From contig NC_092568.1 in assembly GCF_037975245.1 (NCBI RefSeq), positions 3,689,001 through 3,753,000 on the forward strand: a DNA stretch of 64,000 nt. The letters are read 5' to 3'. The translations under genes and the position numbers were made by a program. Source of the stretch: Apostichopus japonicus. Taxonomy: Eukaryota > Echinodermata > Holothuroidea > Aspidochirotida > Stichopodidae. This document shows positions 25,640-60,800 of the stretch, in pieces. Position 1 is the first letter of the stretch, and each line of letters opens with the position of its first letter. The notes under the pieces are model-generated. The model made no database searches. It saw only the letters and a program-made list of their open reading frames with translations, and was not told the DNA's origin.

Positions 25640-26290
25640 CGTGCAAAACATGCAACAATAAGTGCAACGAACACAGTGTATGGATACGTCAACCATTCTT
25701 AATACCACCTTCAGAGTAATCTTGAATAATATAGATTCGACTTTACACGATCTGGTTTCTGTAAACACAAATAATTAAAACAAAATATATACCTTTAAGT
25801 GCAACGCAATGTATGGCTATGTCAATCATTTTTAATACCACCTTCCAGAATACTCTTGAATAATATAGTTTCGACTCAAACGATCTGTTTTTTTTACCGT
25901 CATACTTCAGTATCGATGTCAATGTTGAAGGTAATGCCAAGGATGTAAAATCCTCTCCAAAAACCCAATAAATATCGTTCAAAAACATTTGAAAACCAGT
26001 CAATGTTCCTGCTCCCACTAACATGGACTTACTAATATTCATTTTTAAACCTGAAAATTCCACGAAAAAGTGATTGAGTAAATTGCGAAAACATCGTTCG
26101 TTCGCTTCGACAAAGAACCTGGTGTCATCAGCATAAGGAGTCATTTTATATTCTTTTCCACCGATATCAATACCTCGAATGGAATCATCATTGCTTATTA
26201 AAACATTCAATAGCTGAGTACATAATTTAAAAATATATGGGGATAGTGGGTCTCCTTGCCGGCATCCTCTTTCAACAGGAAACTATTGTG
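25640..26290 (-). mobile_element. LINE reverse-transcriptase fragment
   Basis: On the minus strand, from 26270 downward, the text GCRQGDPLSPYIFKLCTQLL is reverse-transcriptase motif 4, followed by GIDIGGKEYKMTPYADDTRF containing the catalytic YADD (26134-26123) and GLKMNISKSMLVGAG. This identifies a non-LTR retrotransposon of the L2/CR1/L1-like range. Downstream the piece VLKMIDIAIHCVALK (the K-M-x-D-I thumb region) occurs twice as diverged direct copies (about 25895-25805 and 25760-25670). The fragment is truncated at both ends and has several frame breaks. Confidence 0.85.
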
Positions 26291-27738: not shown

Positions 27739-27879
27739 GAATAACTACAACCGTTCAACCAATCTATACCGTTAAATTGCTCGTTACAAGTAACAAGACT
27801 GCCGTTTTCGTTGAGGAGTACAAAATCCAAAGAAGGAACAAAACCTTAAAAACGTTAAGGAGTCTTAAATGTAAACAAG
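27739..27879 (+). promoter_or_regulatory. 5' leader shared with GPCR 1
   Basis: Blocks AACTACAACCGTT, TGCTCGTTACAAGTAACAAG and AAACGTTAAGGAGTC recur in the same order before the start codon of GPCR 1 (6974-7073). The duplication that made the pair therefore included the leader. No TATA box is obvious. Confidence 0.5.
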
Positions 27880-28893
27880 ATGGATACGAACGGAGTTGAA
27901 GTTACGATTTTACCCACCGATTCGCCTGGTTACGTTTTTGAAGATCCGACACAAAGAACACTTTTGTCCGTTATAGTGATACTTGTGGCGGCTGTTGGCA
28001 TTCCTGGGAATATATTGGTTATGATTGCTGTGACTTTTTCGAAAAGATTGCAAACCAAGACCAATTCATTTGTCGTGAATTTGGCGTGTTCTGATCTTGC
28101 TACGTGTCTCATCCTTCCGTTCCAAGTTGTCGCTTTGTTGAACGATAGTTGGCCGTTGCCAGACCCGTTGTGCACGTTGGTTGCTGGTGTTTTCTGGGTT
28201 GGTCTTGGTAGCAGCGTTGTCAACCTCGCCTTAATCGCCTTTAACCGTTTCACATTAATAACTAAATCTCGTACTCGCTACGACCATGTATATTCAAAGA
28301 GAAATCTTGTCCTTATGTTAGTTTCAGCATGGATCATTCCGATCGTCCTGGTTACGGTCCCACCCTTGTGTGGCCTTGGAGGAATCGGCTACGCGGAGAG
28401 ATATAAGATGTGTTCAGCTGACTCAACCCATCCTTTATCGGATGTTTACGCATTCATCAGCAGTGTTCTCGTTGAAGTTCCTTGTTTGATCATTATCATT
28501 ACATGTTACGTCAAAATTTATCGATTCATTCGAGCTAAAAACCGAGAGCTATTTCCAAACAACGCGTCTAGAGGGGAAAGCAAGGGCAACGCCCAATCAG
28601 CGGCCTTCAAAAGACAAGTGAAAGTGACAAAGAACTTGTTTTTGGTGGTATGTTCGTATATCATATGTATAATGCCCTTTGCTATTGCCTGTTTGATACC
28701 ACCCAGCTACCCTTCCATTCCTTGGGTGATGATGTTTCTTATTGCTAACTGTTGTGTGAATCCAATCATTTATGGACTATACCATCCTCAGTTTAGAGAT
28801 GTATTTCGACGTATACTTTCGTGCAAGTTTAGACTTATTCCAGAGCCGTCGAATATTTTACAGTCTCTTACAACTGCATCGACAAGCGCTTGA
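27880..28893 (+). CDS. Rhodopsin-class orphan GPCR, copy 2 (intronless)
   Basis: 337 residues, the same length as the receptor at 7074-8087, with about 49 substitutions (about 85% identity) and no gaps. The pattern repeats: N44, D72, C98, NRF at 122-124, W151, C178, P201, CIMP at 263-266, NPIIY at 294-298. Differences concentrate in the N-terminus (residues 9-33), the TM3 start (FAVVV to LAGVF), ECL2 (DVGK to GLGG), the outer part of TM5 (AFVG to VLVE) and the C-tail, that is, at extracellular and ligand-facing positions. ICL2, ICL3 and TM7 are nearly unchanged, suggesting the same G-protein coupling with altered ligand contact. Frame integrity of both copies argues that both are functional. 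Family placement is Tre1/Moody/GPR84/melatonin-like, moderately sure. Confidence 0.93.
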   Translation: MDTNGVEVTILPTDSPGYVFEDPTQRTLLSVIVILVAAVGIPGNILVMIAVTFSKRLQTKTNSFVVNLACSDLATCLILPFQVVALLNDSWPLPDPLCTLVAGVFWVGLGSSVVNLALIAFNRFTLITKSRTRYDHVYSKRNLVLMLVSAWIIPIVLVTVPPLCGLGGIGYAERYKMCSADSTHPLSDVYAFISSVLVEVPCLIIIITCYVKIYRFIRAKNRELFPNNASRGESKGNAQSAAFKRQVKVTKNLFLVVCSYIICIMPFAIACLIPPSYPSIPWVMMFLIANCCVNPIIYGLYHPQFRDVFRRILSCKFRLIPEPSNILQSLTTASTSA

Positions 28894-34851: not shown

Positions 34852-34859
34852 GTGCACAG

Positions 34860-34960
34860 CATCGGGCTGAAGTTGGCGAACAATAACAGCGACCATTACC
34901 AGCGAACAATAAGAGCGAACACTAAGGGGAAAATGATACTACGGAGAAGTTTAAGGGCAA
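34860..34960 (+). repeat. Left terminal inverted repeat of the foldback-like element
   Basis: Starts CATCGGGCTGAAGTTGGCG, then GCGAACAATAAGAGCGAAC-type words and AATGATACTACGGAG. It pairs with 49480-49616 read on the other strand; the right end carries one extra 32-bp copy of the tip sequence. Confidence 0.8.
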
Positions 34961-35059
34961 TTCCAATGTTACAAGGGGAAAAGTAAAGTTTTAAAAACTA
35001 AACTAATTGACACACTTATTTAACAGAGTCATGGGTGTGTTATCAGACAATAAAAGTTT

Positions 35060-38000
35060 TCAAATTGTGCAAGTAATAGCTGGCAACCCTCTCTATCACC
35101 CAATCAAAACCACCTTGAGAAAAGATGCCATCAGAGAGGGCGTTAATAACGCCCAAACTCGACGCGAAGTCGCATCTACCGTTTATATACGGGTTTTCAA
35201 CACGATTTTTGGCTAACAAATCAAATCTGTAACTCAGTATCATTGGGGTCCCCAAAGTAGCTGACGTTACCCACTATCACCCCATGCCAACAAACCTCGG
35301 GGGACGGTATCATTTAGGGTGTTATTAACACCCAAACTCGACGCAAAGTCGCATTAACAGTTTATATACGGTTTTTCAACACGATTTTTGGCTAACAAAT
35401 CAAATCTGTAACTCAGTATCATTGGGGTCCCCATGGTAGCTGACGCCACCCTCTATCACCCCGTACCAACAAACCTCGGTGGACGGTATCATTTATGGTG
35501 TTATTAACACCCAAACTCGACGCAAAGTCGCATTTACAGTTTATATACGGTTTTTCAACACGATTTTTGGCTAACAAATCAAATCTGTAACTCAGTATCA
35601 TTGGGGTCCCCAAAGTAGCTGACGTCACCAGCTATCACCCCATGCCAACAAACCTCGGGGGACGGTATCATTTAAGGTGTTATTAACACCCAAACTCGAC
35701 GAAAATTCTCATTTACAGTTTATATACGGTTTTTCAACACGATTTTTGGCTAACAAATCAAATCTGTAACTCAGTATCATTGGGGTCCCCAAAGTAGCTG
35801 ACGTCACCAGCTATCATCCCATACCAACAAACTCGGGGGACGGTATCATTTAGGGTGTTATTAACACCCAAACTCGACGAAAAGTATCATCTACACTTTA
35901 AATGAGGTTTTTCAACACGATTTTTGGCTACCAAATCAAACAAATAAAATCTGTAACTCAGTATCATTGGGGTCCCCAAAGTAGCTGACGTCACAAGCTA
36001 TCACCCCATACCAACAAACCTCGGGGACGGTATCATTTAGGGTATTATTAACACCCAAACTCGACGCAAAGTCGCATTTACAGTTTTTATACGGTTTTTC
36101 AACATGATTTTTGGCTAACAAATCAATCTGTAACTCAGTATCATTGGGGTCCCCAAAGTAGCTGACGTCACTAGCGATCACCCCATACCAACAAACCTCG
36201 GGGGACGGTATCATTTAAGGTGTTATTAACACCCAAACTCGACGCAAAGTCGCATTTACAGTTCATATACGGTTTTTCAACACGATTTTTGGCTAACAAA
36301 TCAAATCTGTAACTAAGTATCATTGGGGTCCCTATGGTAGCTGACGTCACCCTCTATCGCCCTATACCAACAAACCTCGGGGGACGGCATCATTTAGGGT
36401 GTTATTAACACCCAAACTCGACGAAAAGTATCATCTACAGTTTAAATACGGTTTTTCAACATGATTTTTGGCTAACAAATCAAATCTGTAACTCAGTATC
36501 ATTGGGGTCCCCATGGTAGCTGACGCCACCCTCTATCACCCCGTACCAACAAACCTCGGTGGACGGTATCATTTATGGTGTTATTAACACCCAAACTCGA
36601 CGCAAAGTCGCATTTACAGTTTATATACGGTTTTTCAACATGATTTTTGGCTAACAAATCAATTCTGTAACTCAGTATCATTGGGGTCCCCATGGTAGCT
36701 GACGTCACCCTCTATCACCCCATACCAACAAACCTCGGGGGACGGTATTGTTTATGGTGTTATTAACACCCAAACTCGACGAAAAGTCGCATTTACAGTT
36801 TATATACGGTTTTTCAACACGATTTTTGGCTAACAAATCAAATCTGTAACTCAGTATCATTGGGGTCCTCAAAGTAGCTGACATCACCAGCTATCACCCC
36901 ATGCCAACAAACCTCGGGGGACGGTATCACTTAAGGTGTTATTAACACCCAAACTTGACGCAAAGTCGCATTTACAATTTATATACGGTTTTTCAACACG
37001 ATTTTTGGCTAACAAATCAAATCTGTAACTCAGTATCATTGGGGTCCCCAAAGTAGCCGACGTCGCCATCTATCACCCCATACCAACAAACCTCGGGGGA
37101 CGGTATCATTAAAGGTGTTATTTAACACCCAAACTCGACGAAAAGTATCATCTACAGTTTAAATGAGGTTTTTTCAACATGATTTTTGGCTAACAAATCA
37201 AATCTGTAACTCAGTATCATTGGGGTCCCCAAAGTAGCCGACGTCGCCATCTATCACCCCATACCAACAAACCTCGGTGGACGGTATCATTAAAGGTGTT
37301 ATTAACACCCAAACTCGACGAAAAGTATCATCTACAGTTTAAATACGGTCTTTCAACACGATTTTTGGCCATCAAATCAAATCTGTAACTCAGTATCATT
37401 GGGGTCCCCAAAGTAGCTGACGTCACCCTCTATCACCCCATACCAACAAACCTCGGGGGACGGTATCATTTAGGGTGTTATTAACACCCAAACTCGACGC
37501 AAAGTCGCATTTACAGTTTATATACGGTTTTTCAACACGATTTTTGGCTAACAAATCAAATCTGTAACTAAGTATCATTGGGGTCCCCAAAGTAGCTGAC
37601 ATCACCAGCTATCACCTCATGCCAACAAACCTCGGGGGACGGTATCATTTAAGGTGTTTTTAACACCCAAACTTGACGCAAAGTCGCATTTACAGTTTAT
37701 ATACGGTTTTTCAACACGATTTTTGGCTAACAAATCAAATCTGTAACTCAGTATCATTGGGGTCCCAAAAGTAGCCGACATCGCCATCTATCACCCCATA
37801 CCAACAAACCTCGGTGGACGGTATCATTTAAGGTGTTATTAACACCCAAACTCGACGCAAAGTCGCATTTACAGTTTATATACGGTTTTTCAACACGATT
37901 TTTGGCTAACAAATCAAATCTGTAACTCAGTATCATTGGGGTCCCCATGGTAGCTGACGTCACCCTCTATCACCCCATTTCAACAAACCTCGGGGACGGT

Positions 38001-38575
38001 ATCATTTAAGGTGTTATTAACACCCAAACTCGACGCAAAGTCGCATTTACAGTTTATATACGGTTTTTCAACACGATTTTTGGCTAACAAATCAAATCTG
38101 TAACTCAGTATCATTGGGGTCCCCATGGTAGCTGACGCCACCCTCTATCACCCCGTACCAACAAACCTCGGTGGACGGTATCATTTATGGTGTTATTAAC
38201 ACCCAAACTCGACGCAAAGTCGCATTTACAGTTTATATACGGTTTTTCAACACGATTTTTGGCTAACAAATCAAATCTGTAACTCAGTATCATTGGGGTC
38301 CCCATGGTAGCTGACGCCACCCTCTATCACCCCGTACCAACAAACCTCGGTGGACGGTATCATTTAAGGTGTTATTAACACCCAAACTCGACGCAAAGTC
38401 GCATTTACAGTTTATATACGGTTTTTCAACACGATTTTTGGCTAACAAATCAAATCTGTAACTCAGTATCATTGGGGTCCCCAAAGTAGCTGACGTCACC
38501 CTCTACCACCCCTTACCAACAAACCTCGGGGGACGGTATCATTTAGGGTGTTATTAACACCTAAACTCGACGCAA
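35060..38575 (-). repeat. Left tandem array, about 19 units of 179 bp
   Basis: The anchor word CTCAGTATCATTGGGGTC (one unit has CTAAG) recurs every 178-180 bp from 35232 to 38461, giving 19 units. One unit near 35940 is longer by about 10 bp. Read on the minus strand each unit contains a CRE palindrome TGACGTCA (some copies changed), GGGGACCCC, a TATA-like GTATATAAACTG and the inverted repeat GGTGTTAATAACACC. The first 65 bp (35060-35124) are a degraded unit. Open frames of about 60 codons in many units follow from sequence conservation, and 179 is not a multiple of three. Confidence 0.95.
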
Positions 38576-40109
38576 GCTATCCGATTTATATTTAGTGTAG
38601 AGAGAATGTGTCTCACATTATAGAAAGAAGAGAAATTAATTGAGAAAGCCGTAAATTAAAATGAAGCTATTAGGAAAGCTATGATTTTTTACGGAATACC
38701 TTTTATTATATACAAAGATACATAAGTAAGCTTAAAATGACCCTACTCATATAGTATCGTTGAAATGAAATAACAAGAAACTTCCCCGATCAGTATATCC
38801 GGACCAATTCGGAATAGATATTAGTGTCAGTGTACAGTCACATTTCACCGTATTACAAGAGTTAGTCAAAATATAGTTAATATGTCTCCAAACTTCTTTT
38901 AGTATGTGTGTAGAAGTTTATCGATATGCAACCGCAATGGAGAATAGAAGGCTTAGCGATGTTGTATTCCTTTTAAATACCAAAGGAATTAATCCCCGTG
39001 AACTAAAGATGGATTTATTTGACAGACAACAAAATCATGTCGACAGTATAAGCAAATTGTGAAAGTTCAGGCCCGATTTTCCTAAAATGGGATCCAATAG
39101 AACCAATTTGAGATAACATGTGATGGGTAGTCTAATGACAATGATCCAACTGTAAATTTGGTTTAGACAAAACATATCATATAAATTGGTTAGCGATAAA
39201 TGTTATCATGGCATTTTTCTCAAATTGTCTTCAATCAACCACCTAATTGCATATAAGCATGTGAATTGTTTTAAGACGTTGGACCACCGAGTTGCAAACA
39301 CGATGATCAAATCCATGGTTTTTGGTTATTTCTCTCAAATACGTTTGCGTTAAAGCATCAATTCCGTCACAGGATATAACGTATCTGACCTCCTTGTTCA
39401 AATTGTGCCGAAAAAAACTTATTTTATAAATGACTGGTTAAAGTGAATAAAAAAGAATAAACGGCTCATGATTCGAAATACATAAATTAGCCTAATATAT
39501 TGACTCGATATCTGGCATTTAACATTGACAGCACATATACAATATGTTTCTTGTATATAATAAGGGGAATGTATATATCAAGTATGGCTTTCAATCAAGG
39601 TTTACTTACTGAAGTAGTTGAGATATTTTCATATTTTCAACAATGTTAAGATGATGATTTGATTGTGTACCAGTTTTTGCAATCAAACGCATAACGGCCA
39701 AAACTACGTGAAAAGCAGCTGGGCTGATATCTTTTCAAGTTATACGTACATTTCATGAAGTTTTAAGTTGCATTGACTTTTTTAGTTACACATACACAAC
39801 AAACAAACAACAAACAAACTTAGACAAACTCCACATGAATCTTCATAGATCTTCCGGCATTCAGCAGTAAGCTGATAAGAACCTAATTCTTCAATAGACA
39901 TGCAACAAACGACAAGTAATGAAATTAATATCTAAGTAGAAGAGAAGAGAAAAGACCATGACTTTTTAAGCAAATTACAGGGTATACTAATTATGGATTA
40001 CCTTTTGAAAGTTTATTGAAAAATTTAGTGATATTTCTTTTAAAAAAAAACTTTTATTGCTGAAGAAAATCACAGTGTTGTACACAAAATCGCAAATTTG
40101 AGGGGACAA
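38576..40109. other. Central region of the foldback-like element, left part
   Basis: AT-rich, with a CAAA/CAAACAAA microsatellite near 39796-39820. No open frame or domain is recognised. Confidence 0.5.
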
Positions 40110-40561
40110 ACTAAAACGAATGACAGCGAATGACCGAATGACAATTGACTTTGTACAGGGTTAATTATCATTTGCGAATGACAGCGAATGACAGCGAATG
40201 ATAACGAATGACAACGAATGACAACGAAGGACACTGTTGAGTGGAGATAGAATGATTAACGGAGTGGAGTAAATGCGGTTATTGGTTTTCTACGCAAAAA
40301 TGATTTGAGGAAAATCGCATGTTACGTGGTTGCAGGGTTTTGGTGTAATTTACGGATAGAAACCACAGGGATAGTTTTTGTGTGAGAATGCGCTTGAGTG
40401 CTGTGCTTTTTACCTCTATAGATTTATAGAGAAAGATAACTGAAGCCGTTTCAAGATTATAGTATTGTTAGTTTCTAACAATTAATATCGGAAAAATGAC
40501 GTTAAATTTACTTTTTAAAATCAGACTTACAATTTCGCTTACTATAAGGTGCGTTTTTTAA

Positions 40562-41651
40562 CAGTGGCGGCGGAACAGGGGGGCTTGGGGGGGGGGGGCT
40601 CAGCCCCCAATGAAAAAGTTGAGGGGGCAAATGCATGATATGCCCCCCCCCCAATATTTACCAAGGCTCCGAAACGTGCATCTGCCCATTTTTCAATGCA
40701 TACTTGTCGATCTGTCCGATGCACAGGTACACTATATAGGTGTAATAATTTAAGTAATTGCTGGGGGACCCTCGGCCCGTCCCATAGCTATAGACCACAT
40801 TGTCACCCCAACCGCGTCTTCACGCCCCGTGAAAAGTGGAAGCCGCGAGTGTGAGTACCGGTAAGCGTAACACAACTTCGTCTTAGGCCAATGCCTTGCC
40901 TCATTTCAGCCAGTTCTCCAACATCCCCTTACTTAGTGGCGGAGCGTCCATATATACAGTCAGGGGGCGGATGCCCCCCCCCCCCATGAAGGACTCAAAT
41001 GGACTGCTGGCGCCCTTTTCAGCTTTTCACTACTTTTTACTTATTCGCGATTATTGACTATTTTATTGCGCTCTCATATACCTATTGACATTTGTCATAT
41101 TCTGTTGGTGTAATTTTCCGACAAAATGGCGACGACACCTATTTATTCTCCGTTTATCTGCAAATTAGCAAGGCCCGGAAAGGGTCATTTCCTGCAATCT
41201 AGGGAGTATCTTTACTCAAAAATTTTCTGTAAGCTCCGCGCCAACCTGTGGTGGCGCTCTGCTTAGATAGTGTCGAAAGCGCCCCTATAGACCATTCTTG
41301 CCCCCCCTGACCAATACCCCTAGCTCCGCCACTGCCCTTACTACACTCAAAAACGCCTTTGCGAGTACACTACGAGTAATAGCAACTCTCTTAAAACACC
41401 ATCGAATATACAAATTACAATGTTTTTTACAGACTTTAACGTGCAATCTGAGAAATTGCAGGCTTGAGACCCATATTTTAGGGCTAGGTATTCGCAGCAT
41501 AAAACACTCGGGAAGTGCCGTTTCCGGCCATCTGGGGGTTTGAAAAAACCCAAAATTTTCTTGTACGCTCCGCGCCGACTGATGGTGGCGCTCCGCTTAG
41601 ATAGTCTCCACACATTAGCCCCCCAATAATTTTTCCGTTCCGCCGCGCCTG
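40562..41651. mobile_element. Non-autonomous hAT (1,090 bp), host of another hAT
   Basis: Ends CAGTGGCGGCGGAACAGG and CCGTTCCGCCGCGCCTG are inverted repeats with a few mismatches. Flanks CGTTTTTTAA and CGTTTTTA resemble an 8-bp duplication altered by T-run slippage. The subterminal block GGTGGCGCTCCGCTTAGATAG lies about 45-70 bp inside the right end. Confidence 0.75.
40934..41334. mobile_element. Nested non-autonomous hAT (401 bp)
   Basis: Ends TAGTGGCGGAGC and TAGCTCCGCCACTG are inverted repeats (first base changed), flanked by the perfect 8-bp duplication CCCTTACT (40926-40933 and 41335-41342). It carries its own copy of the GGTGGCGCTCTGCTTAGATAG block about 60 bp from the right end. Confidence 0.88.
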
Positions 41652-41831
41652 CGTTTTTATCTTGTCCGTACTTTACTAGATCTAGATACCCACGAAGTCT
41701 GAACTGTGATATCCGGTTGAAGCAAATTTCTGTGCTGTCATTACTGTCATTCGTTTTAGTCAAAGCATTTTTTTAGTGTGTACAACATATTGTCATTCGT
41801 TATGTGTAACGCAATTGTCATTCGTTTTAGT

Positions 41832-42066
41832 AACACCCAATTTGAGCCCCGGATGACCTTTGGCCCCAAATTCTTACCACTACTGTTCAAGTAACACTAT
41901 GACCAACATTCTTCATAATCCAATGCAAACTGCACGAAAAGAACCTTCGGTATTACATACAACTTACTGCAAAAGATAAGTAGATGATCTTTGACATCCA
42001 TATTTTGAACTCACCATAATTATGTCTCCATATTAAGTGAACACTATGACCCAGCATGGTGATCAC
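41832..42066. other. Central region of the foldback-like element, middle part
   Basis: Text such as GATGACCTTTGGCCCCAAATT and AGTAACACTATGACC recurs in altered form after 43413 (GATGACCTCTGTATAACCTTTGG, GGACACTATGATC), so this area is an older short repeat split by the hAT at 42067. Confidence 0.45.
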
Positions 42067-43404
42067 CAGGGTTGTCACCACGCCGGACTGCGCCGGGCGG
42101 TGCTACCCAGCTCTCAAAATTTCCGCCCGGTACTCAAGGTCAATTTCAGCGTTACCGCCCGGCACAAATTAGCCTACAGTACCGCCAATAAGTAACTTGG
42201 TAAAGATTAGCGCGATTCAGTGCAAAACGCAGCTTATCTGTAATTAACCCCGCTCCAAATAAAGGAACGCTACTTTCCCCGCACTCCAAATAAAGGAACG
42301 CAAATTCCCCTCGCTAGCTATTCACCACCGACACAATGGGAGTGAACCGATCGATAGAACCCTATTCATAGCGTGGAGGTAGCGTAAACCAGGGAGTTCA
42401 TAACAACTCCCTGCGTAAACCGATCGCTTGTAACCAACACACGTTATATGCAATTGTTTATTGTAAACATCCAGAGTAGGCCTACGAGCACGAGTACGAA
42501 GTTTACGAACTTTGACTGAAAGAAAGTTTTAAACGAGAATAGTTTCATGTTGAAGGGCAAAACCTTTTTATACATGTTTATTTTATTCCCCGATATGTTC
42601 TGGTTACCAGAAGTAATAAAAAGCAAGAAGGAAACTTCGTGCCTTATCCTGCTTGCGGGAAGTTCCTGCTTGCGGGAAGTTCCTGCTTGCGGGAAGATCA
42701 CTATACATACATACATACATACATACATCCTTTCGGGATTACATATCATTTTTAGTAGTAACATTAGGCCTCGCGTTTGTGTGGACTTTAGGCACATTAG
42801 GCTAGGAAACGTTGCACTGAGTACTGTTCGAAAAACATGTCGAGACAAGACTCGGTGCATTGGATACTGTTCGCTGTTTAGTTATGCATGTAGAGACGTT
42901 CCACTGCCAATCGTTTCTTGGCGATTTGCCAAGTTTAACTAAGAACAAGTGTTTCACGCACATTGTAAGAATGTTGTACAGTACTGTAGCATGCAAATCA
43001 TCAGACGACAGCCTGCTGTACCAATGATTTCCCGCGTACACTGCCGTACAGGTAAAATGTGAATTCCTTTTTGGGGGGATTTAATGGTCATGCATACTAA
43101 ATGAGAACAATGTGCATTTGGAACAATAACACTGGGGTGAGTGATGAGGGGCTCTAAATACAAAAAAATACCAAAAAAGATCCCAGGAAAATTCAGTGAT
43201 CCACATGAAAAACAAAGGTATCTCAGAAGAATTTTGAGGATCAAAACCCTTTCTAAATGCCACCATTTTGCATGTAGGCACCATCAGGATTTGAAAATTT
43301 TTCAAAAGGGGAGGGGGACACCCCCTCCCTTTATACCCCTCCCCCAGGGCGCGGATCACTGTCACAGATTACCCGGCTCTAAAAATGGTCTGGTGACAAC
43401 CCTG
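42067..43404. mobile_element. Non-autonomous hAT (1,338 bp)
   Basis: Ends CAGGGTTGTCACCA and TGGTGACAACCCTG are perfect inverted repeats, flanked by the perfect 8-bp duplication GTGATCAC (42059-42066 and 43405-43412). Inside are three tandem GCGGGAAGTTCCTGCTT units (about 42654-42696), a (CATA)n microsatellite (42703-42728) and two AAATAAAGGAACGC repeats (42261, 42291). Open frames on both strands are featureless. Confidence 0.92.
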
Positions 43405-43412
43405 GTGATCAC

Positions 43413-44194
43413 CCATATAGGAGAAGCATTTTGAGTGTGTTCACACAATTAACCCAGATGACCTCTGTATAACCTTTGGCATAAACTTACTAAACACCCA
43501 TATGACCCACTACTCAAGGACACTATGATCAAGTTTGGTCATCTTTCATTGATGTGTACACATGCTCTAACTTCACTGGAATGAAAATTTAAAAAATAGC
43601 TCTTTCGACTTTTAACTATTGGTGTATCATTTAGAGAGACCTGAATCCAGGTCAACAAAACGTACCTACACAAGTCTGTGTAATCAACAACCGATGAAAC
43701 CTCAAGTTTTTTGTTTCAGTCACTATCGGTTTAATCCGTACTATACCGTTAACCAACTCAGGGCATAATCAACAGGCATGCAGTTACCTAAATCTTATTT
43801 TCTATCGTCGGCTAAATTCTTCAATCTCCTTTTATGTTCCAACAAAGGTACCCTCGTGATGTTTCAGAAGACATATATTGGATATGGAGGGATCAACTTG
43901 TATTTTATAAGTTACAAACGTCATATAATGAACAAAGGGTGTATGCGTGTTCCCTTTAAAGTGCACTCAACCAATGATAATGTTTCTCTACCACAGATCT
44001 AACAACTGCTGAATACAGATCTGATAAGATACACTCACCATCAAAAATACAAAAGCAGGAGCACTAATTCAATTAGTACATTTGTATCCATGCATGATAA
44101 GGTTATTTATCCCAGGTTGTGATGATCACTCTTGTTCCATGTTCTGAAGTTGCCCTTCATGAATTTTGAATATGTATTAACCAGGTAATAACGC
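43413..44194. other. Central region of the foldback-like element, right part
   Basis: AT-rich; a featureless 74-codon open stretch lies at 43778-44002. No domain recognised. Confidence 0.45.
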
Positions 44195-45169
44195 CAGGGT
44201 TCTCGCCAGTCCGATTTAACCGGGCGGGGCTCCAGGTTTGAATTTGATTTTGGCTCTCGCCGATCGGTTCGAAAGTTGTGCGCCCTAGCTGTTTGAAAGT
44301 TGGGTGCCTGGTTTTATAGCTGTTATAAATAATCAACGTTAGCAAGTACTACTGAAACATTTTGACATTTTTAATGTGAATAAAACCATCGACTAAATAT
44401 TCACACTTTTCAGTTCACTCTTCCTATTCCCAACTGCAACCACGGCAAATAACACATTCCAGGTATCACGTAAGCGCTTCAGTATAGTGATATCGCGACA
44501 CAAACGATCCCTGCTTTTACACAGCAAAAGGTTGCGAACGAAGTTTGTGTTTTCTGGGTACTGAGAGATGCCAGAATGTTTGTATTTAAACATCGTATAA
44601 CCTAAACCAGGGCAGGAAAAAAATGAAGTCACAACTGAATCACCGTGACACACACACACAAAAAAAATAGTCATTCAGTTTATGTAGCAGTTTATGTAAT
44701 GTTGACTCTAGTCAATGGTCAGCTGACTATTTTTCTTTATACTGTAGAGTATAACTAACAGCAATGTCCAGGTTATTGCCATACATTTGAAAATTTAAGA
44801 AATCATAGCTTTGTAAAGTAGCGCGAATTTCAAGTGGCTTGGCTGTTGGAAGAATCACCAAGACCAGTTTATTTTGTCTTTATTACTCGGCAGTCATGTA
44901 TAACTCTAAGTTATTGAAAAATATTTGAGCATTTATAAATCATAGCTCGAGAAAGTCAATTTCAAGCAGTTTGCCTACTTAGAAAAGACGAAAATCGCGG
45001 AGCTTCCGGGGGCTTAGCCCCTTGGACCCACACAACGAACTTTGCCCCTTGACCGCACGCCGAGAGTGCGATCGCTACGCTACGCGATCGCGCGGATACC
45101 CTTGGCATCCGAATTGATCATCGGCACTTGAGACCACCCGGTTTGACAAAAAAGCGGGCGAGAACCCTG
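44195..45169. mobile_element. hAT-like element (975 bp)
   Basis: Ends CAGGGTTCTCGCC and GGCGAGAACCCTG are perfect 13-bp inverted repeats, related in style to the element at 42067. A clear 8-bp flanking duplication is not found, so one flank may have been altered. No transposase. Confidence 0.65.
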
Positions 45170-45182
45170 CAGGTTTTAATTT

Positions 45183-48100
45183 TAATGACAAATTCCAAAA
45201 GTAAGATTGATTTGTAAGCCAAAAACTGTGTTGAAAAACCGTATACTAACGGTAGATGAGACTCTGCCTCGAGTTTGGGTGTTAACACCCTAAATGATAC
45301 CGTCCCCCGATTTTTGTTGGCATGGGGTAATAGAGGGTAACGCTAGCTTCTTTGGGGACCCCAATGATACTGAGTTACAGATTTGATTTGTTAGCCAAAA
45401 ATCGTGTTGAAAAACCGTATATAAACTGTAAATGCGACTTTGCGTCAAGTTTGGGTGTTAATAACACCTTAAATGATACCGTCCCCCGAGGTTTGTTGGC
45501 ATGGGGTAATAGCTGGTGATGTCAGCTACTTTGGGGACCCCAATGATACTGAGTTACAGATTTGATTTGTTAGCCAAAAATCGTGTTGAAAAACCGTATA
45601 TAAACTGTAAATGCGACTTTGCGTCAAGTTTGGGTGTTAATAACACCTTAAATGATACCGTCCCCCGAGGTTTGTTGGCATGGGGTAATAGCTGGTGATG
45701 TCAGCTACTTTGGGGACCCCAATGATACTGAGTTACAGATTTGATTTGTTAGCCAAAAATCGTGTTGAAAAACCGTATATAAACTGTAAATGCGACTTTG
45801 CGTCAAGTTTGGGTGTTAATAACACCTTAAATGATACCGTCCCCCGAGGTTTGTTGGCATGGGGTAATAGCTGGTGATGTCAGCTACTTTGGGGACCCCA
45901 ATGATACTGAGTTACAGATTTGATTTGTTAGCCAAAAATCGTGTTGAAAAACCGTATATAAACTGTAAATGCGACTTTGCGTCGAGTTTGGGTGTTAATA
46001 ACACCTTAAATGATACCGTCCCCCGAGGTTTGTTGGCATGGGGTAATAGCTGGTGATGTCAGCTACTTTGGGGACCCCAATGATACTGAGTTACAGATTT
46101 GATTTGTTAGCCAAAAATCGTGTTGAAAAACCTCATTTAAACTGTAAATGCGACTTTGCGTCGAGTTTGGGTGTTAATAACACCATAAATGATACCGTCC
46201 CCCGAGGTTTGTTGGTATGGGGTGATAGAGGGTGACGTCAGCTACCATGGGGACCCCAATGATACTGAGTTACAGATTTGATTTGTTAGCCAAAAATCGT
46301 GTTGAAAAACCGTATTTAAACTGTAGATGATACTTTTCGTCGAGTTTGGGTGTTAATAACACCATAAATGATACCGTCCCCCGAGGTTTGTTGGTATGGG
46401 GTGATAGCTGGTGATGTCAGCTACTTTGGGGACCCCAATGATACTGAGTTACAGATTTGATTTGTTAGCCAAAAATCGTGTTTGAAAACCGTATATAAAC
46501 TGTAAATGCGACTTTGCGTCGAGTTTGGGTGTTAATAACACCATAAATGATACCGTCCCCCGAGGTTTGTTGGTATGGGGTGATAGAGGGTGACGTCAGC
46601 TACTTTGGGGACCCCAATGATACTGAGTTACAGATTTGATTTGTTAGCCAAAAATCGTGTTGAAAAACCGTATATAAACTGTAGATGATACTTTTCGTCG
46701 AGTTTGGGTGTTAATAACACCCTAAATGATACCGTCCCCCGAGGTTTGTTGGTATGGGGTGATAGAGGGTGACGTCAGCTACCATGGGGACCCCAATGAT
46801 ACTGAGTTACAGATTTGATTTGTTAGCCAAAAATCGTGTTGAAAAACCGTATATAAACTGTAGATGATACTTTTCGTCGAATTTGGGTGTTAATAACACC
46901 TTAAATGATACCGTCCCCCGAGGTTTGTTGGCATGGGGTGATAGAGGGTGACGTCAGCTACCATGGGGACTCCAATGATACTGAGTTACAGATTTGATTT
47001 GTTGGCCAAAAATCGTGTTGAAAAACCGTATATAAACTGTAAATGAGACTTTGCGTCGAGTTTGGGTGTTAATAACACCCTAAATGATACCGTCCCCCGA
47101 GGTTTGTTGGCATGGGGTGATAGCTGGTAACGTCAGCTACGTTTTTGCTCCCAGATGATACTGTGTTACAGATTTGATTTGTTAGCCAAAAATCGTGTTG
47201 AATGACCGTATATAAACTGTAGATGATACTTTTCGTCGAGTTTGGGTGTTAATAACACCCTAAATGATACCGTCCCCCGAGGTTTGTTGGTATGGGATGA
47301 TAGCTGGTGACGTCAGCTACCATGGGGACCCCAATGATACTGAGTTACAGATTTGATTTGTTAGCCAAAAATCGTGTTGAAAAACCGTATATAAACTGTA
47401 AATGAGACTTTGCGTTGACTTTGGGTGTTAATAACACCTTAAATGATACCGTCCCCCGAGGTTTGTTGGTATGGGGTGATAGAGGGTGACGTCAGCTACT
47501 TTGGGGACCCCAATGATACTGAGTTACAGATTTGATTTGTTAGCCAGAAATCGTGTTGAAAAAACGTATATAAACGGTAAATGCGACTTTGCGTCGAGTT
47601 TGGGTGTTAATAACACCTTAAATGATACCGTCCCCCGAGGTTTGTTGGTATGGGGTTATAGCTGGTGACGTCAGCTACCATGGGGACCCCAATGATACTG
47701 AGTTACAGATTTGATTTGTTAGCCAAAAATCGTGTTGAAAAACCGTATATAAACTGTAAATGCGACTTTGCGTCGAGTTTGGGTGTTAATAACACCATAA
47801 ATGATACCGTCCCCCGAGGTTTGATGGCATGGGGTGATAGAGGGTGATGTAAGCTACTTTGGGGACCCCAATGATACTGAGTTACAGATTTGATTTGTTA
47901 GCCAAAAATCGTGTTGAAAAACCGTATATAAACTGTAAATGCGACTTTGCGTCGAGTTTGGGTGTTAATAACACCATAAATGATACCGTCCTCCGAGGTT
48001 TGTTGGTATGGGGTGATAGAAGGTGACGTCAGCTACCATGGGGACCCCAATGATACTGAGTTACAGATTTGATTTGTTAGCCAAAAATCGTGTTGAAAAA

Positions 48101-49120
48101 CCGTATATAAACTGTAAATGCGACTTTGCGTCGAGTTTGGGTGTTAATAACACCATAAATGATACCGTCCCCCGAGGTTTGTTGGTATGGGGTGATAGAG
48201 GGTGACGTCAGCTACCATGGGGACTCCAATGATACTGAGTTACAGATTTGATTTGTTAGCCAAAAATCGTGTTGAAAAACCGTATATAAACTGTAGATGA
48301 TACTTTGCGTCGAGTTTGGGTGTTAATAACACCTTAAATGATACCGTCCCCCGAGGTTTGTTGGTATGGGGTGATAGAGTGTGATGTCAGCTACTTTGGG
48401 GACCCCAATGATACTGAGTTACAGATTTGATTTGTTAGCCAAAAATCGTGTTGAAAAACCTCATTTAAACTGTAGATGATACTTTGCGTCGAGTTTGGGT
48501 GTTAATAACACCCTAAATGATACCGTCCTCCGAGGTTTGTTGGCATGGGGTGATAGCTTGTGACGTCAGCTACCATGGGGACCCCAATGATACTGAGTTA
48601 CAGATTTGATTTGTTAGCCAAAAATCGTGTTGAAAAACCGTATATAAACGGTAAATGAGTCTTTGCGTCGAGTTTGGGTGTTAATAACACCCTAAATGAT
48701 ACCGGCCCCCGAGGTTTCTTGGTATAGGGTGATAGCTGGTGACGTCAGCTACTTTGGGGACCCCAATGATACTGAGTTACAGATTTGATTTGTTAGCCAA
48801 AAATCGTGTTGAAAAACCGTATTTAAACTGTAAATGCGACTTTGCGTCGAGTTTGGGTGTTAATAACACCCTAAATGATACCGTCCCCCGAGGTTTGTTG
48901 GTATGGGGTGATAGCTGGTGACGTCAGCTACGTTTTTGCTCCCCAATGATACTGAGTTACATATTTTATTTGTTTGCCAGATGCGGTTTTGAATAACAGT
49001 ATATATATGCTACGTTTTACTTTCAGTTGCTGAGTTAATTGTTAATAACCCCCTGCCCGACATCGTCCCTCACGGTTGTTGACATACTTCGGTAGAGTGT
49101 AATGTCAGCTTTAACGTTCG
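45183..49120 (+). repeat. Right tandem array, about 21 units of 179 bp
   Basis: The anchor word GATACTGAGTTACAG (one unit has GATACTGTG) recurs every 178-182 bp from 45368 to 48946, preceded by one partial and followed by one strongly diverged unit. The orientation is opposite to the left array. The first four or five units are practically identical to each other, while the later ones are mosaics of a few variants (GCGACTTTGCG or GATACTTTTCG; CCGTATATAAAC or CCTCATTTAAAC; ACCATGGGG or ACTTTGGGG), which indicates local homogenisation. Confidence 0.95.
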
Positions 49121-49479
49121 CCCCACCCTTCTTCATGTTTCCCATTAAGCTTTGTTTGCAAATATATTATCTTTTACCCTAAACTTACGCTTTTCGCTGA
49201 TATTCGGGGCAGGTCTGATATTTTAAGAGCTATAATTTTGCTTTACTACGATAATGAGTTAGGCCATACCCTGACTTTGGGGATATTTTATACCCAGTTC
49301 CATAATTACGAGTTTGTCGGGTGTGAATCTCTTATAATAAATTATTTAATGCATGGAACGTCCAAAAGCCTGTCTTTCCCTCCTGATTGCAATCGATTGA
49401 AAGCATTCGATCATTCAATTTGCTTTAAACACATCATTTTTGCCACATGGCTCATTACAAAGGCCACTACACAACTCCG

Positions 49480-49616
49480 TAGTATCATTTGCACTTTCTA
49501 GCATTTTTTGGTCGCCCTTATTGGTCGCTCTTATTGTTCGCTACTATTGGTCGCTCTTATTGTTCGCCAACTTCAGCCCGATGTCGCTCTTATTGTTCGC
49601 CAACTTCAGCCAGATG
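49480..49616 (-). repeat. Right terminal inverted repeat of the foldback-like element
   Basis: Reads inward CATCTGGCTGAAGTTGGCG, GCGAACAATAAGAGCGAC, then a second tip copy ATCGGGCTGAAGTTGGCG, more GCGAC/GCGAAC words and AATGATACTACGGAG. It matches the left end at 34860-34960. Confidence 0.8.
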
Positions 49617-49623
49617 TGCACAG

Positions 49624-50920
49624 CTGAGTAATACCGGTCTGAGTAATTCGGTCGCAACTAAAGAGCTGGGTAGCACTATATGGCTAGCCTGGCCTAACAT
49701 GACCGAGGTTTCTAAACTCACGATGCAGAATTCGTGCACAAGAAACGGGGTGTACAGAGTTTCACACCGCATTGCCTTTCATTTGTAGACAAGTTGGTAT
49801 TATGTGCCTAACGTTAGGCCTGCAATTTAACATAAGAGAGTAGTGATATGTAGGCTAGGCCTAGAATAAATACCGCTATTGTTGTAGCCTATGCCCAACG
49901 TAAAGCTAGGCCTAGCCTTGCTCTTTTACGTAGGACACGGAATGTAGTGACAGGTGCGTCGACTGCTAGCCTAATTTAGGCAGTCCTAGCCTTTTCAGTA
50001 TTATTTTATAACATCAACAGAATGTGTCAGACCACTGCAACATTTCCTGACAATCGTGTGTGTGGTAAGTGTAAACAACCTTTACATGTTAGAAAATTCA
50101 ACCAAGGCCTAGTCTAGTGAACTAGAAACTATAAAGTGGAAAAGGATAGCACAAATCCACTCCCATTCATAATTTAGGGGAGTTTGTGTTGCAGATTAGG
50201 GCTAAAGGGTTAACTAGGGGTAATGTTGCACTTGTTGGGCACTTGACGAATCCATAGCCTCTTAACCTAATGTACTAGGCCCAACCCTAATCCCCAAGGC
50301 TAACATACCAAAAGAGCCAGCTCAGGATGGATAGGATCAAATAGCATCAGTGATTGTTCTAGTTGATTCATCAGTGATTGTTCTTGATTGACCCTAGGCC
50401 TATACGGTATAGCTCTATTGCATTCCTATAACTGTACATTGTTAAAGTCCAGGGCACTAAAACAATCACAGTGGAAGGAAGAAACAAGAAGTACATGGCA
50501 ATTGATTTTTGTATGAGCACTTTAATTAGAAACATGTGAGGAAAAAACTTCTCAGTGAAGTTAGTGCACATTATCAATTATGATTTCCTGAAGGTGCTTG
50601 TGCAGTGTAAAGCACCTTTAGTATGTGATTTGAATACAGCCTACCCTGAAACCATAATGATCTGGCCTCTTCTCAGGAATATGCATGTATACATGAAGGA
50701 CAGCCGAGCAAACTCTTATAACGTTTTTTTCAGGCCTATATGATGTAGCATGATGTCTGCCCCATGACCTATAGGTTCCTGCTTCTCTTGATCTACATAA
50801 CAAACTTGCTGCATTAATCAGTGTTGTAAATGGCATCTTCTTTGGATTTGGTGTAAATTTCTAGTTTCATAATAGGAAATGGGGCTCCAAAACAACTTCA
50901 TACACAATAGCTGCACAGCA
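49624..50920. other. Upstream region of ZFYVE26
   Basis: Contains TAGGCCTA words. A consensus donor (GTAAGT) at 50065 after TGTGTGTG could end a non-coding first exon. No CDS supported. Confidence 0.35.
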
Positions 50921-51897: not shown

Positions 51898-54800
51898 ATG
51901 GATCTGCCATCCCATCATCCATTTGGACAAGAGGCTTCAATATCTCTGAAACAGCTGTTCGTAGCCTTCTGCAATAACCTTAAGCTCGGCCAGTGGGAAC
52001 TGGCCAGGGCCTGCTTAATCTCATTGCATGCACAAAATGAGACTGATAGTGGTGTACCCCAAGCTGTCGATCTCCTACAGGCCTTGGCAAAGAATCCTCA
52101 CAACACTTGGTAAGGTTGTAAAGTAGTTTAGTTTTTATAGTCTCCTATAGATGCTGCATATTTAAGCAGCTCTTTTAACATTCATGTTTTTATCTCAATA
52201 CATTACATGTATAGAGATATTGTAACAGTAAGTGGGACTCTCTCTTCTCTTAAAAAATTTTCAGCGTCTTCATACGAAGTTCTTTTTCTCTGAAATTTCC
52301 AGAGCAAGCATATATCATATAGGCCAACAAAAGTTACTATTTTTTATTCCAGAATTGTATCTCATTCCATGACTTTTTCACCGATTTATGTCAAAATTTG
52401 GCCAAATCCCCTGAAAAACTGTTGAACCAAGGCTTTTTTGCACACGCTACAAAACTTGTTTGTTTCCTTGTTTTTGATAATTAAGCCCCGCCTCCAAGTT
52501 TGGTTTGTAGCAGATTGGCAATGACTCAAGCCCCGCCTCCAAGTCTGGTTTGTAGCAGATTGGCAATGACTCAAGCCCCGCCTCCAATTCTGGTTTGTAG
52601 CAGATTGGTTAGGACCCATGGCAGCTACATGTTAGATATACGAAAATGGCCACCCTCGCGACTAATTTTCTGTACTGTTGTGAGATATGCTGCTGGTACT
52701 GGTAGTGCATTGCACACTAATTTCATACACATTGTCGTACTACATTTAGTTTATATTAGGACTTCGTCTGTTTATAGCTCCATGGTTTTAGTAATATCAA
52801 TTTAAGGATTGTACTGTTGTTCAGGTAGTTTTTCAGAGCAAGAGTCATGATAAGTTTGTTTGATTGCCCATCAGGTATTTTTGTATAATTACGTATACAC
52901 ATTGTTGTGTTTACAAGTTTAGGCTAGGCCTACAGTAGTGCATCCTATATTAGACCTTCATTTAGTAATGGCCACATTAGCATTGTACTGGTGGTGTTCA
53001 GGCAGTTTTGGGCCAGGGTGCAGTAAGTTTGTTTGATTGCCTTACAGTGTGTTTTAATTTTAACTTAAGTTTCCAACTTATATTTTAACTGTGACTCCAT
53101 AAATTTAACAAAATGTGAATGGTATAATACAACAACTATTAATTTGGAATAGAGTGTATATTGTGCATTTCTAGAATGAAGCATCATTATGAATTAACAG
53201 CTTGTTTGGTATATTTCTTTAACCCCCCCCCCCAAAAAAAAAAAAAAGAATTAAGAACAAAAATTATAATCTATCACATTTTATTTTCACTGGAGTATGT
53301 ATAAAAGAGGAGCCAGCCATAGCATCACAACTTTTATAAGACTATAAAAATTGGATAAGTTTATGTTTTATTTATAAGGATATAAGATGTATAACTATAA
53401 GGTTATAAGAAGTATGTTTAGCGTTCTTTTGAACCTGTGATGTTTGACATCAAATATTCAAAGAATTAAAAGAAAATATTAAAATGGAGAGGAACTGGGG
53501 TGGCTATAAGGAGAGGAGGAGGCCACCCATCACTTTCAATTAAAAACTTGTAATCTACTTGTACATTATTTTTTCCAAGTCATAAATCCACGAAATCTTC
53601 ATGTCAAAATTATTGAGAAGGAAAAACGTGGGTTGTTTTGATACTTGGAAGTGTACACAGTTTTGATGGTAGTCACCACTACAGTCTACAGTAACGTACA
53701 GTAGGTCGATAGGCCTAGCTTTCTCAAGGTGGGCATCAAGAATATGGTCGAGTTGTTCGCCTCTTCTTATTTGACTGTTGTCATTGACGTCAAACTATAT
53801 GACCAAAAATATTATATATATTGATATTGATAATTGTAGAGACAGAGCAAAGATATGAAACTAGGAATCGAAATTAGAACTTCCAGTATTGAGATACTGC
53901 ATCATTGATGCTCTTGTTATTAATTTATTTGATACTGTTGGATAATAACATCACATGGAAGAAATAGCTTGCAATAGTGAAAGATTTATTTCAAATACCC
54001 ATTGGAGTAAAGGTTAAAACTGTGACTATGTTTGTGAAAACTAATTTGTAAAGGTCTCCAAGGACAAAATTTGTAGAATTATTTGGATTAATTAATTACT
54101 CCCATAGTTAATATTCATTTGGTGAATGAGTCGAGAATGGCATATTAGTACCTTTTAACCTTTAGTAATATTATTTGTATGATGTTTGAGTAAAATTGCC
54201 AAATTAGTAACTTGGTGACTAAATGCAAAAAAGGATTTTGAGCTAAAAGACTGCTTTCTGTCTTGAGTTGTACTTGAATGTATTTAATGAGCTATAAACT
54301 TTCATGTGATCAGGATTCTTGATCAAGGTACACCATACAGTTGTAACCAAGAAAAAATTGAATGTAACATCTGTGGTTGTTTGAGCTAAACAGTACAAAT
54401 GTGTAAAGGTTCACTAACAGATCTGTAGCATCCAAGTGTATTAGAAATTATTTACCTCATTCCTGTTTTTGGATCAGTGAGAAAAGTGGTATGGATATAA
54501 TTGTGAGGTATGTTTGATCTCCTGCACAATGAACATACTCTATGAGCTGGTGTTTATAGAATATTGTTTTTAAATAAGAAAACCAGTCCAGAGATTGTGC
54601 CAGTGAATGAACCTTCCGTATTGCTGCACAATAATTACAGAATAAATACAGAATACTTGTAACAGAAATGTGTCATTGTTAGTGATTAAAACTTGAAAGG
54701 CAGCTCATTAATTATATGTGTCTTGTTATGTATGCAAAGTCAAAAGGATGAGTACTTGTCAAATAAGTTCAAGACATCTAAATGTGGTGGTAAATTACTC

Positions 54801-57800: not shown

Positions 57801-60800
57801 AAAGCAGATACACTTACTCGGTGAAATTGTTGTAAGTATCTTAATCTACAAGTGTTTAAAATAGTGGTATGTGTTTTAAATTGAGGTTTCAGTTGTTTAA
57901 AAGTAAAATTTTCTATGCTAATAGATGATTTTACCAAAAAAAGGTGGAGTTTGGGAGTAACTTGTGCATGTGTTTACAATTTTCTCCAGCCAAACTATTG
58001 TAAATCTCATGGGATGACAGTGTTGAACAGCTAACAAGCAGTATTTCTGTACTACTGCAGTACTTAGTATATGACAAGAGTGTTGAAAATGCTTCTAAGC
58101 TGTTTCACCACACTCTCATGGGATAGCAGAATTGAAAAAGCTTACCAAAATCAGACCAATTTTCTTTCACATAGTCTGCCACAAAAGTTGAAGACACAAA
58201 GTTAAATTAATATTGGTTTTTCTCTTTTACTGTAACTTGCTGGTCACTTGTTCCTTCCCAAAGAGATTCTTCTATGAATTTTTATCTCAATACATTACAT
58301 GTATAGAGATATTGTAACAGTAAGTGGGACTCTCTCTTCTCTTAAAAAAATTTTCAGCGTCTTCATACAAAGTTCTTTTTCTCTGAAATTTCCAGAGCAA
58401 GCATATATCATATAGGCCAACAAAAGTTACTATTTTTTATTCCAGAATTGTATCTCATTCCATGACTTTTTCACCGATTTATGTCCAAATTTGGCCAAAT
58501 CCCTCTGAAAAACCGTTGAACCAAGGCTTTTTTGCACACGCTACAAAACTTGTTTGTTTCCTTGTTTTTGATAATTGAGCCCCGCCTCCAAGTTTGGTTT
58601 GTAGCAGATTGGCAATGACTCAAGCCCCGCCTCCAAGTCTGGTTTGTAGCAGATTGGCAATGACTCAAGCCCCGCCTCCAATTCTGGTTTGTAGCAGATT
58701 GGTTAGGACTCATGGCAGCTACATGTTAGATATACGAAAATGGCCACCCTCGCGACCAATTTCTATACTGTTGTGAGATATGCTGCTGGTACTGGTAGTG
58801 TATTGCACACTAATTTCATACACATTGTCATACTACATTTAATTAATATTATGACTTCGTCTGTTTATAGCTCCATGGTTTTAGTAATATGTGTTTACAA
58901 GTTTAGGCTAGGCCTACAGTAGTGCATCCTATATTAGACTTTCATTTAGTAATGGCCACATTAGCATTGTACTGGTGGTGTTCAGGCAGTTTTGGGCCAG
59001 GGTGCAGTAAGTTTGTTCGATTGCCTTCTTAAGTTTCCAACTTATATTTTAACTGTGACTCCATAAATTTAACATAATGTGAATGGTATAATACAACAAC
59101 TATTAACTTGGAATAGAGTGTATATTGTGCATTTCTAGAATGAAGCATCATTATGAATTAACAGCTTGTTTGATATATTTCTTTAACCCCCCCCCCAAAA
59201 AAAAAAAAAGAATTAAGAACAAAAATTATAATCTATCACATTTTATTTTCACTGGAGTATGTATAAAAGAGGAGCCAGCCATAGCATCACAACTTTTATA
59301 AGACTATAAAAATTGGATAAGGTTATGTTTTATTTATAAGGATGTAAGATGTATAACTATAAGGTTATAAGAAGTATGTTTAGCTTTCTTTTGAACCTGT
59401 GATGTTTGACATCAAATATTCAAAGAATTAAAAGAAAATACTAAAATGGAGAGGAACTGGGGTGGCTATAAGGAGAGGAGGAGGCCACCCATCACTTTCA
59501 ATTAAAAACTTGCAATCTACTTGTACATTATTTTTTCCAAGTCATAAATCCACGAAATCTTTATGTCAAAATTATTGAGAAGGAAAAACGTGGGTTGTTT
59601 TGATACTTGGAAGTGTACACAGTTTTGATGGTAGTCACCACTACAGTAACGTACAGTAGGTCGATAGGCCTAGCTTTCTCAAGGTGGGCATCAAGAATAT
59701 GGTCGAGTTGTTCACCTCTTCTTATTTGACTGTTGTCATTGACATCAAACTATATGACCAAAAATATTATATATATTGATATTAATAATTGTAGAGACAG
59801 AGCAAAGATATGAAACTAAGAATCGAAATTAGAACTTCCAGTATTGAGATACTGCATCATTGATGCTCTTGTTTATTTTTGGTTTTACAATTTTGGGGTT
59901 GGGGAGGGGGGCATGGGGGTAGCATGAGGGGGATGTGGTGAGGATTGTAACTTTCAGGTTCAGAATTTAAGAATGCATTTGTGGACTCCTTTGAGAATGA
60001 TGTGTATTTTGCTTGCTTTTACTAAATATCATTAAATCCACATTCCTGTGACCTGCGAGAGTAAAGATGACATTTTTGGTTTTGACAAGTTGTTTTAAAG
60101 TTATTACCACCGTACTATGTACCACTGCACGTACCACTGCACAAAAGGGTATCAAGTTACATAACATTCCTAGAACTGCATGTCCAAAAGTACTTTTTTC
60201 TGGGGTCACCCAATTTTACAACCTTACATGATCATAATTCACATCTTTTTTAAATGTTTCCTCTAACTCTCGCAGAGTACTTGTCTAAAGTTTATCCAAG
60301 ACGGACTATTTGAGGAACTCACTATTCTACTTCAGCCGGTCGAATTTCAATGCCTTAAACCTCTAGTTCTTCTCATCGGATGGAATTATGTCACCAGCAG
60401 TTCATCAGCAGAAGATCTCATCCAGGCCCTTTGCCTGAATCAGGTATACAAATGAATCAAGGATATTTCAGACGTTGGTAACATTTTAGGACTGTGCCGA
60501 CCCCCGGCCTTCTTCAAGGTCAACACCCTCTTCCTCAAACTTCTTTCTGAATCTTCAATTCTCAGATTTAAAACTATAATTCTAGGGTAATTTGCAATCT
60601 TATGTAATCGTCTTCACTTTTAAAGTTTTGGTGAAAGCTTCTGAAGTCAGCCAGAAACTGATTTTGACAGACTGTTTTTTTTTTCACCAATAGATGGGAA
60701 AGACCAAAGTGGAAAGAAATTTCTTGTTTGGACTGATAATATTGTTTTATTAGAGTATGAGGTGCACTTGTGTGAATCAATCATGATTGAGCTTGCATCA

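Follow-up and report, generated by a model that had tools for sequence, protein, structure and literature searches.

A foldback transposon family with satellite arms, probably of the Mutator superfamily, in the sea cucumber Apostichopus japonicus

A stretch of 64,000 nucleotides from the genome of the sea cucumber Apostichopus japonicus (assembly GCF_037975245.1, contig NC_092568.1; hereafter the window) contains an element of 14,755 bp (window positions 34861-49615) in which two long inverted arrays of a 179-bp satellite unit enclose a central core. An earlier note on this DNA had interpreted it as a mobile foldback element of unusual size whose arms are satellite arrays. We found that the element belongs to a family with tips at about 25 loci in the genome, 15 of them tip pairs and every pair bounded by a perfect 9-bp target duplication, so the structure is almost certainly real and mobile. 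It is very likely a non-autonomous, cut-and-paste foldback DNA transposon, most plausibly of the Mutator superfamily, whose arms have grown and shrunk and whose core has apparently been turned round; a recently amplified, non-autonomous family is the best explanation of the data.

Concerning the boundaries of the window element, flanking repeats of 8 bp had been proposed. The octamer GTGCACAG is indeed present at both ends, but the base that follows both copies is C, after which the tips pair as ATC[G/T]GGCTGAAGTTGGCG, and therefore the duplication is 9 bp long (GTGCACAGC, in identical copies). The octamer count by itself is weak evidence: GTGCACAG has five exact sites in the window against 1.17 expected, and 2 of 100 shuffles reach five, although two of the five sites fall exactly at the two ends of the element. 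The subterminal word GCGAACAATAAGAGCGAC, noted before on both sides, occurs at six window sites with three or fewer mismatches, against 0.01 expected: two at the left end on the + strand, with one mismatch each, and four at the right end on the - strand, three of them exact and one with two mismatches. Tandem Repeats Finder (TRF) confirmed the two arrays of the 179-bp unit in opposite orientation, and an alignment of one arm with the other gives about 92-93% identity. The parts of the element are collected in Table 1. The right unique stretch beside the array is taken as a decayed unit, following a measurement in another copy (C9, see below).

Table 1. Parts of the transposon in the window
Feature	Position in window	Strand	Remarks
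Target site duplication, left copy, GTGCACAGC	34852..34860	.	Identical to 49616-49624
Left tip ATCGGGCTGAAGTTGGCG, subterminal repeats of 13-bp type, then unique stretch up to the array	34861..35141	+	Subterminal repeats at 34876-34925 (TRF)
Left arm, array of 179-bp units	35142..38575	+	Period 179, 19.1 copies, 92% matches between copies (TRF)
Core, 6.6 kb, without recognised gene	38576..45206	.	Homologous to the cores of other copies, which occur in two orientations
Right arm, array of 179-bp units in the opposite sense to the left arm	45207..48979	-	Period 179, 21.1 copies, 94% matches (TRF)
Right unique stretch, subterminal repeats and right tip ATCTGGCTGAAGTTGGCG	48980..49615	-	One extra 33-bp tip repeat (TRF 49550-49617)
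Target site duplication, right copy, GTGCACAGC	49616..49624	.	

The 201 bp of the left end were used as query against the 671.6-Mb assembly (35 contigs, with the window at C8:3689001-3753000). The search gave at least 76 matches, and 40 of 48 candidates were scored; the counts are thus a lower bound. Grouped by hand, the matches correspond to 22 left-type tips, similar to the left end of the window element, and 18 right-type tips, the loci being divided into the 15 pairs and 10 single tips. Tips at other loci with distinct duplications had been anticipated, and they exist, although the duplicated length is 9 bp and not 7-8 bp. The 15 pairs are partly dependent on each other, since C22b has the flanks of C22a and is most simply explained as its segmental duplicate, and the 9 bp of C8b and those of C16a are reverse complements of each other. 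Twelve pairs were read whole, namely the window element, ten others chosen since both tips had been found, and then C7; for the pairs C22b, C12 and C3 the ends alone were read, and their duplications were taken from these ends.

All 12 whole copies have the same anatomy: tip, unique stretch, array, core, inverted array, unique stretch and tip, with short subterminal repeats accompanying the tips. Long terminal inverted repeats made of tandem units, the mark of the foldback type, are thus found in every one of them. The copies are 8,238 to 35,284 bp long, each arm holds from 4.1 to 143.2 units (up to 25.6 kb), and the arrays make up 29-75% of a copy and 116,401 of the 202,478 bp of all 12 copies together. 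C7, the 35-kb copy at C7:5640202-5675485, was read in the hope of finding a transposase, and its length is due to a 143-unit arm; C14 spans C14:23058889-23083887. Since satellite arms are present in all 12 whole copies, transposition does disperse this satellite, and the proposal of the earlier note that satellite spread is linked to transposition is borne out, as are mobility and the unusually large foldback design. Two further loci may be described here. L006 (C12:23123403-23126582, with the single tip C12:23124850) is a truncated element consisting of the left tip and one unit followed by unrelated sequence, which we take to hold an exon of an immunoglobulin-like domain. In C22a (L010) a long terminal repeat (LTR) retroelement, with 653-bp direct repeats that are 97.9% alike, lies inside the right satellite array.

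For the assignment to a superfamily we relied on likeness, because a transposase was recognised in none of the copies and no locus of a Mutator-like element (MULE) could be tied to the tips. Mutator elements make target duplications of 8-11 bp, and in several animal Mutator families subterminal tandem repeats of 9-15 bp come after a terminal motif (PMC6446971, PMC5225508 and PMC3169594; here and below, statements on published elements refer to the sections of these papers that we consulted). The sea cucumber family resembles them in having a terminal motif and then short subterminal tandem repeats, and its duplications have the length that is typical of Mutator, 9 bp. The family is therefore placed, by analogy, probably in the Mutator superfamily. 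A transposase supplied from outside the element would recognise the tip and the short subterminal repeats, and the whole element, arms included, would be inserted, leaving the 9-bp duplication that is observed. The same structure could also have been moved by another transposase that makes 9-bp duplications, for example that of the Mutator-related Rehavkus group or of an undescribed group. The failure to tie any of 38 MULE-domain matches (20 loci read) to the element tips would suit this explanation, as would the 9-bp duplications of Rehavkus and the minisatellite that lies next to its 3' terminal repeat; however, Rehavkus encodes a transposase with a PHD finger, has its minisatellite on one side only as described, and is reported from arthropods and annelids only (PMC6446971). 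We consider such a source rather unlikely.

The arrays carry the traces of local turnover. When the 600 full units of the 12 copies were compared, 60% had their closest relative within their own array, where permutation of the labels gave 8%, and 3% had it in the other arm of their copy. Units of one array differ on average by 5.4%, units from the two arms of a copy by 6.2%, and units of different copies by 6.5-6.6% (463 units, 11 copies). The cores of 10 copies differ by 0.8-5.3% and that of C11b by 7.5-9.7%, and in the core tree of 11 copies most inner branches are unsupported. Arrays thus turn over faster than the core gathers substitutions, and much of this turnover took place after insertion; they grew and shrank from copy to copy, probably by unequal exchange. 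The outer junctions of the arrays are common to most copies: on the left, the first full unit starts at element position 315-317 in 9 of 11 copies, and on the right, the last match covers unit positions 43-179 at 82-84%, also in 9 of 11. From these shared junctions we infer that an ancestor already had arms of the 179-bp unit on both sides of the core before the copies spread. Higher-order repeats were looked for in the 600 units, where the lag profiles are mostly flat; TRF reported dimer periods of 357-359 bp in C8b, C11a and C7. Copy C9 shows about 184 bp of similarity (71%) between its left and right ends; next to the array on its right side, the unique stretch is a decayed unit (61.6% across 198 aligned positions, scored loosely), and on its left side a piece of 56 bp resembles the unit at 68%. 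The edges of the arrays are thus old and diverged, with a more uniform middle. Diverged edges with a uniform middle are usual for satellite arrays.

The core is found in both orientations relative to the left and right ends, as in the window in six copies (the window element, C14, C9, C16a, C8c and C16b) and reversed in the other six (C22a, C8b, C15, C11a, C11b and C7, the last read separately). Units were compared by their position in 23 arms, the left arm of C7, with two full units, being dropped. Core-adjacent units are closer within than between core ends (distance 0.078 against 0.100, p 0.0075), and grouping them by arm has no effect (0.089 against 0.089, p 0.33). Tip-adjacent units are closer within than between arms (0.055 against 0.104, p 0.001), with no effect of the core end (p 0.62). 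Deeper units show little, 2 of the 20 other tests being below 0.05 (24 tests in all); the fifth unit from the tip, by arm, gave p 0.043. Units on the core side that follow the core end, and units on the tip side that follow the tip, are expected if crossing-over inside the inverted arms turned the core while the tips stayed in place. The pattern is observed, and the event that it points to is that the core was apparently turned round by recombination between the arms.

The two orientations could instead have arisen via exchange of tips between copies, without inversion of the core. One element, at C3:22135725-22145425, carries two right-type tips, and therefore exchange or conversion at element ends does occur; moreover, the contrast between core-side and tip-side units is also expected from exchanges inside both arrays. 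However, a double tip swap that keeps one left-type and one right-type tip needs two events per copy, where inversion needs one, and we judge tip exchange unlikely to be the origin of the two orientations.

Several results weigh against a non-autonomous Mutator foldback with a turning core, or at least do not help it. No transposase was recognised: open frames of at least 110 amino acids were listed in 11 copies and of at least 150 in C7, and of the 13 window core frames of at least 90 amino acids, the six submitted to Pfam gave nothing above the curated cut-off, a coverage of six window frames in which a spliced gene in short exons could be missed. None of the 38 MULE-domain matches in the genome lies between paired tips, and the tip word, at two or fewer mismatches, is absent from all 20 of these loci that were read with 1.5-kb flanks, in searches aimed at MULE domains, with none aimed at THAP, hAT or Rehavkus-like genes. 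The absence of a MULE gene between the tips is expected of a non-autonomous element and therefore does not decide on Mutator membership. Unit order is hardly kept between copies, as 1 of 253 array pairs (the right arms of C11b and C7, collinear over 16 units) exceeds the maximum of 2,530 shuffled scores; therefore movement of long arrays as such is not supported. The fourth unit from the tip, when grouped by core end, gave an unexpected p of 0.0045, one of the 24 tests. Finally, we discarded the core tree by itself as evidence of flipping: on the tree of 11 cores the orientation label needs three changes, at least two of them forced by strong branches, a result that shuffled labels equal in 154 and 146 of 500 cases.

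The open frame of 128 amino acids at 49115-49501 is not taken as a gene, as its variable sites are distributed 26/26/21 over the codon positions in the 12 copies; it is also broken in C14 and C15 and has no Pfam match. No autonomous partner was identified among the 38 MULE matches (20 loci read). Of these matches, 13 are on contig C17 against 2.1 expected by length. Short-period tandem repeats are carried within 5 of the 20 MULE loci read (L047, L051, L052, L060 and L063), and L065 has a two-copy 379-bp repeat. At L060 with L071 (C9:36347650-36354910), and also at L063, a frame with a MULE domain adjoins an array that measures about 1.9 kb and shows nested periods of 38, 98 and 136 bp; the units of the L060 array hold the dyad GTGTT-GTCGA-AACAC, which by eye recalls the dyad of the 179-bp unit described below.

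Among known systems the closest, as far as the consulted sections describe it, is Tetris of Drosophila virilis, which follows the same plan at a far smaller size. It is a foldback element without a conserved gene, built of an outer flanking domain, tandem repeats of about 220 bp, an inner domain and a variable middle; it makes duplications of 8-10 bp, and its repeats grew inside the element to arrays of up to 66 copies (PMC4079207). The sea cucumber family shares with it the domain plan, the lack of a gene, the expansion of unit arrays inside the element and a placement in Mutator on evidence of the same sort. Tetris has already been published as a case in which satellite DNA arises from a foldback element, and therefore the link between foldback elements and satellites is not new (PMC4079207). 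Unlike Tetris, for which three structurally complete copies only, with terminal repeats up to 1,735 bp, are reported (PMC4079207), the sea cucumber family has 12 complete copies, arms of 4-143 units, an invariable 9-bp duplication, a core that occurs either way round and a hotspot of insertion. In that study it is suggested that large arrays may have disrupted transposition (PMC4079207), whereas complete sea cucumber copies do hold large arrays, a difference of which growth after insertion can explain part.

Other Mutator-type foldback elements are less similar. Tm1 of root-knot nematodes, a Mutator/Foldback element, has composite terminal repeats with a tandem motif of about 14 bp, 9-bp duplications and gene-less members, but some of its members have a MULE transposase, and satellite arms are absent from the description in the sections consulted (PMC3169594). 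Muta1 of Aedes aegypti has a terminal motif followed by short subterminal tandem repeats, duplications of 8 or 9 bp and many gene-less derivatives, and was classed by its authors as a type of Foldback element; it differs in its size of about 3.2 kb, its 145-bp terminal repeats, its own transposase and, in the sections consulted, the lack of satellite arms (PMC5225508). In the open-access literature, that is without Repbase, we found no description of the sea cucumber element or of a two-way core with exchange between arms at the level of units, which is weak evidence of absence. For the sea-urchin TU elements, named in the earlier note together with Drosophila FB, a literature search yielded the Tetris paper alone. 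To the extent that these sources describe their elements, the family is a larger and more dynamic variant of a known foldback design, in which arm size, the two-way core and the hotspot go beyond the descriptions of Tetris.

Membership in the P superfamily or in hAT, as put forward in the earlier note, is not supported on the length of the duplication, no search having been aimed at THAP or hAT transposases; the 9-bp duplication and the short subterminal tandem repeats fit Mutator better. The target duplication of hAT elements is 8 bp, and 9 bp was found at all 15 tip pairs. Galileo of Drosophila, the P-superfamily element named in the earlier note, is likewise a foldback, with tandem repeats of about 210 bp in its terminal inverted repeats and a repeat number that differs between the ends of a copy; however, it has two or three repeats, terminal repeats of at most about 1.25 kb in the species described, a P-type transposase and bounding sequences of 7 bp (PMC3573991). 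That the family is a P-superfamily foldback like Galileo, or a hAT element, is therefore very improbable. That satellite arrays were misassembled into false inverted arms is scarcely credible, even if such arrays are hard to assemble and the evidence here comes from the assembly alone, since at 12 loci of differing arm length the parts follow one another in one order, and the 9-bp duplication that brackets both arms is perfect in each, in elements of up to 35 kb.

Five of the roughly 25 loci (C8b, C16a, C16b, C11a and the single tip C3:31269570) fall into copies of one dispersed repeat, which has no open frame of note, at positions no more than about 30 bp apart. The insertions there occur in both orientations, C8b and C16a having the element in opposite directions at an identical 9-bp target, and some of these pairs may reflect duplication of a filled site. 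At the other insertion sites no shared motif was seen by eye. Nine of the roughly 25 loci are on C16, against 1.7 expected (Poisson p 8e-5), and these events are not all independent, as at least two of the loci (L041 and L046) share flanks. At these two (C16:31705494 and 32431614), left ends with the same 22-bp flank have different subterminal repeats, which would be explained either by segmental duplication with later exchange or by repeated insertion at one site. No structured RNA was found at gathering threshold in the window and the four hotspot loci searched.

Other features of the window include two paralogous single-exon genes for rhodopsin-class receptors (7053-8087 and 27859-28893), whose DNA agrees at about 90% over 1 kb; one receptor protein encoded in the window has a 96% match over its whole length to an Apostichopus japonicus protein, with other sea cucumbers next. 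There are also a tandem duplication of 1,070 bp with 99.7% identity (4770-6905), a perfect tandem duplication of 335 bp (20621-21290), and a duplicated block (52187-53921 and 58279-59877) whose copies are about 6 kb apart, 95-98% alike and each provided with a 45-bp minisatellite. A reverse transcriptase fragment (Pfam RVT_1, E 1e-7) lies at 25743-26282 on the - strand. A short dispersed repeat, 77-88% alike, is found at 18887-19049 and, inside the core of the element, at 41444-41607, as well as near 12821, 17798 and 34094.

The boundary between units of the satellite holds a dyad, GGTGTT-ATT-AACACC, at no fewer than 382 of 420 unit junctions; a longer dyad of 17 bp is perfect in only 118 of the 420. 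As a tentative and rather unlikely suggestion, the satellite might be a working part of the transposon and not a passenger, a long arm then offering many putative binding sites for the transposase or for a host factor. If this is true, the arms would be at once a transposition enhancer, a substrate for flipping the core and a nursery that exports the 179-bp satellite family through the genome. How satellites originate, and how one of them comes to lie on many chromosomes, are old questions. In the present case a single family, amplified recently, brought arrays of 4 to 143 units of one satellite to many chromosomes, in every instance inside a clean target duplication, and the units themselves give evidence of copy-by-copy turnover and of exchange between the two arms. 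In this family the growth of arrays can be measured against the divergence of core and tips at many independent loci. The family is also relevant to the idea, put forward for Tetris, that transposition is stopped by large arrays, even if arrays that grew once inserted can account for part of the observation.

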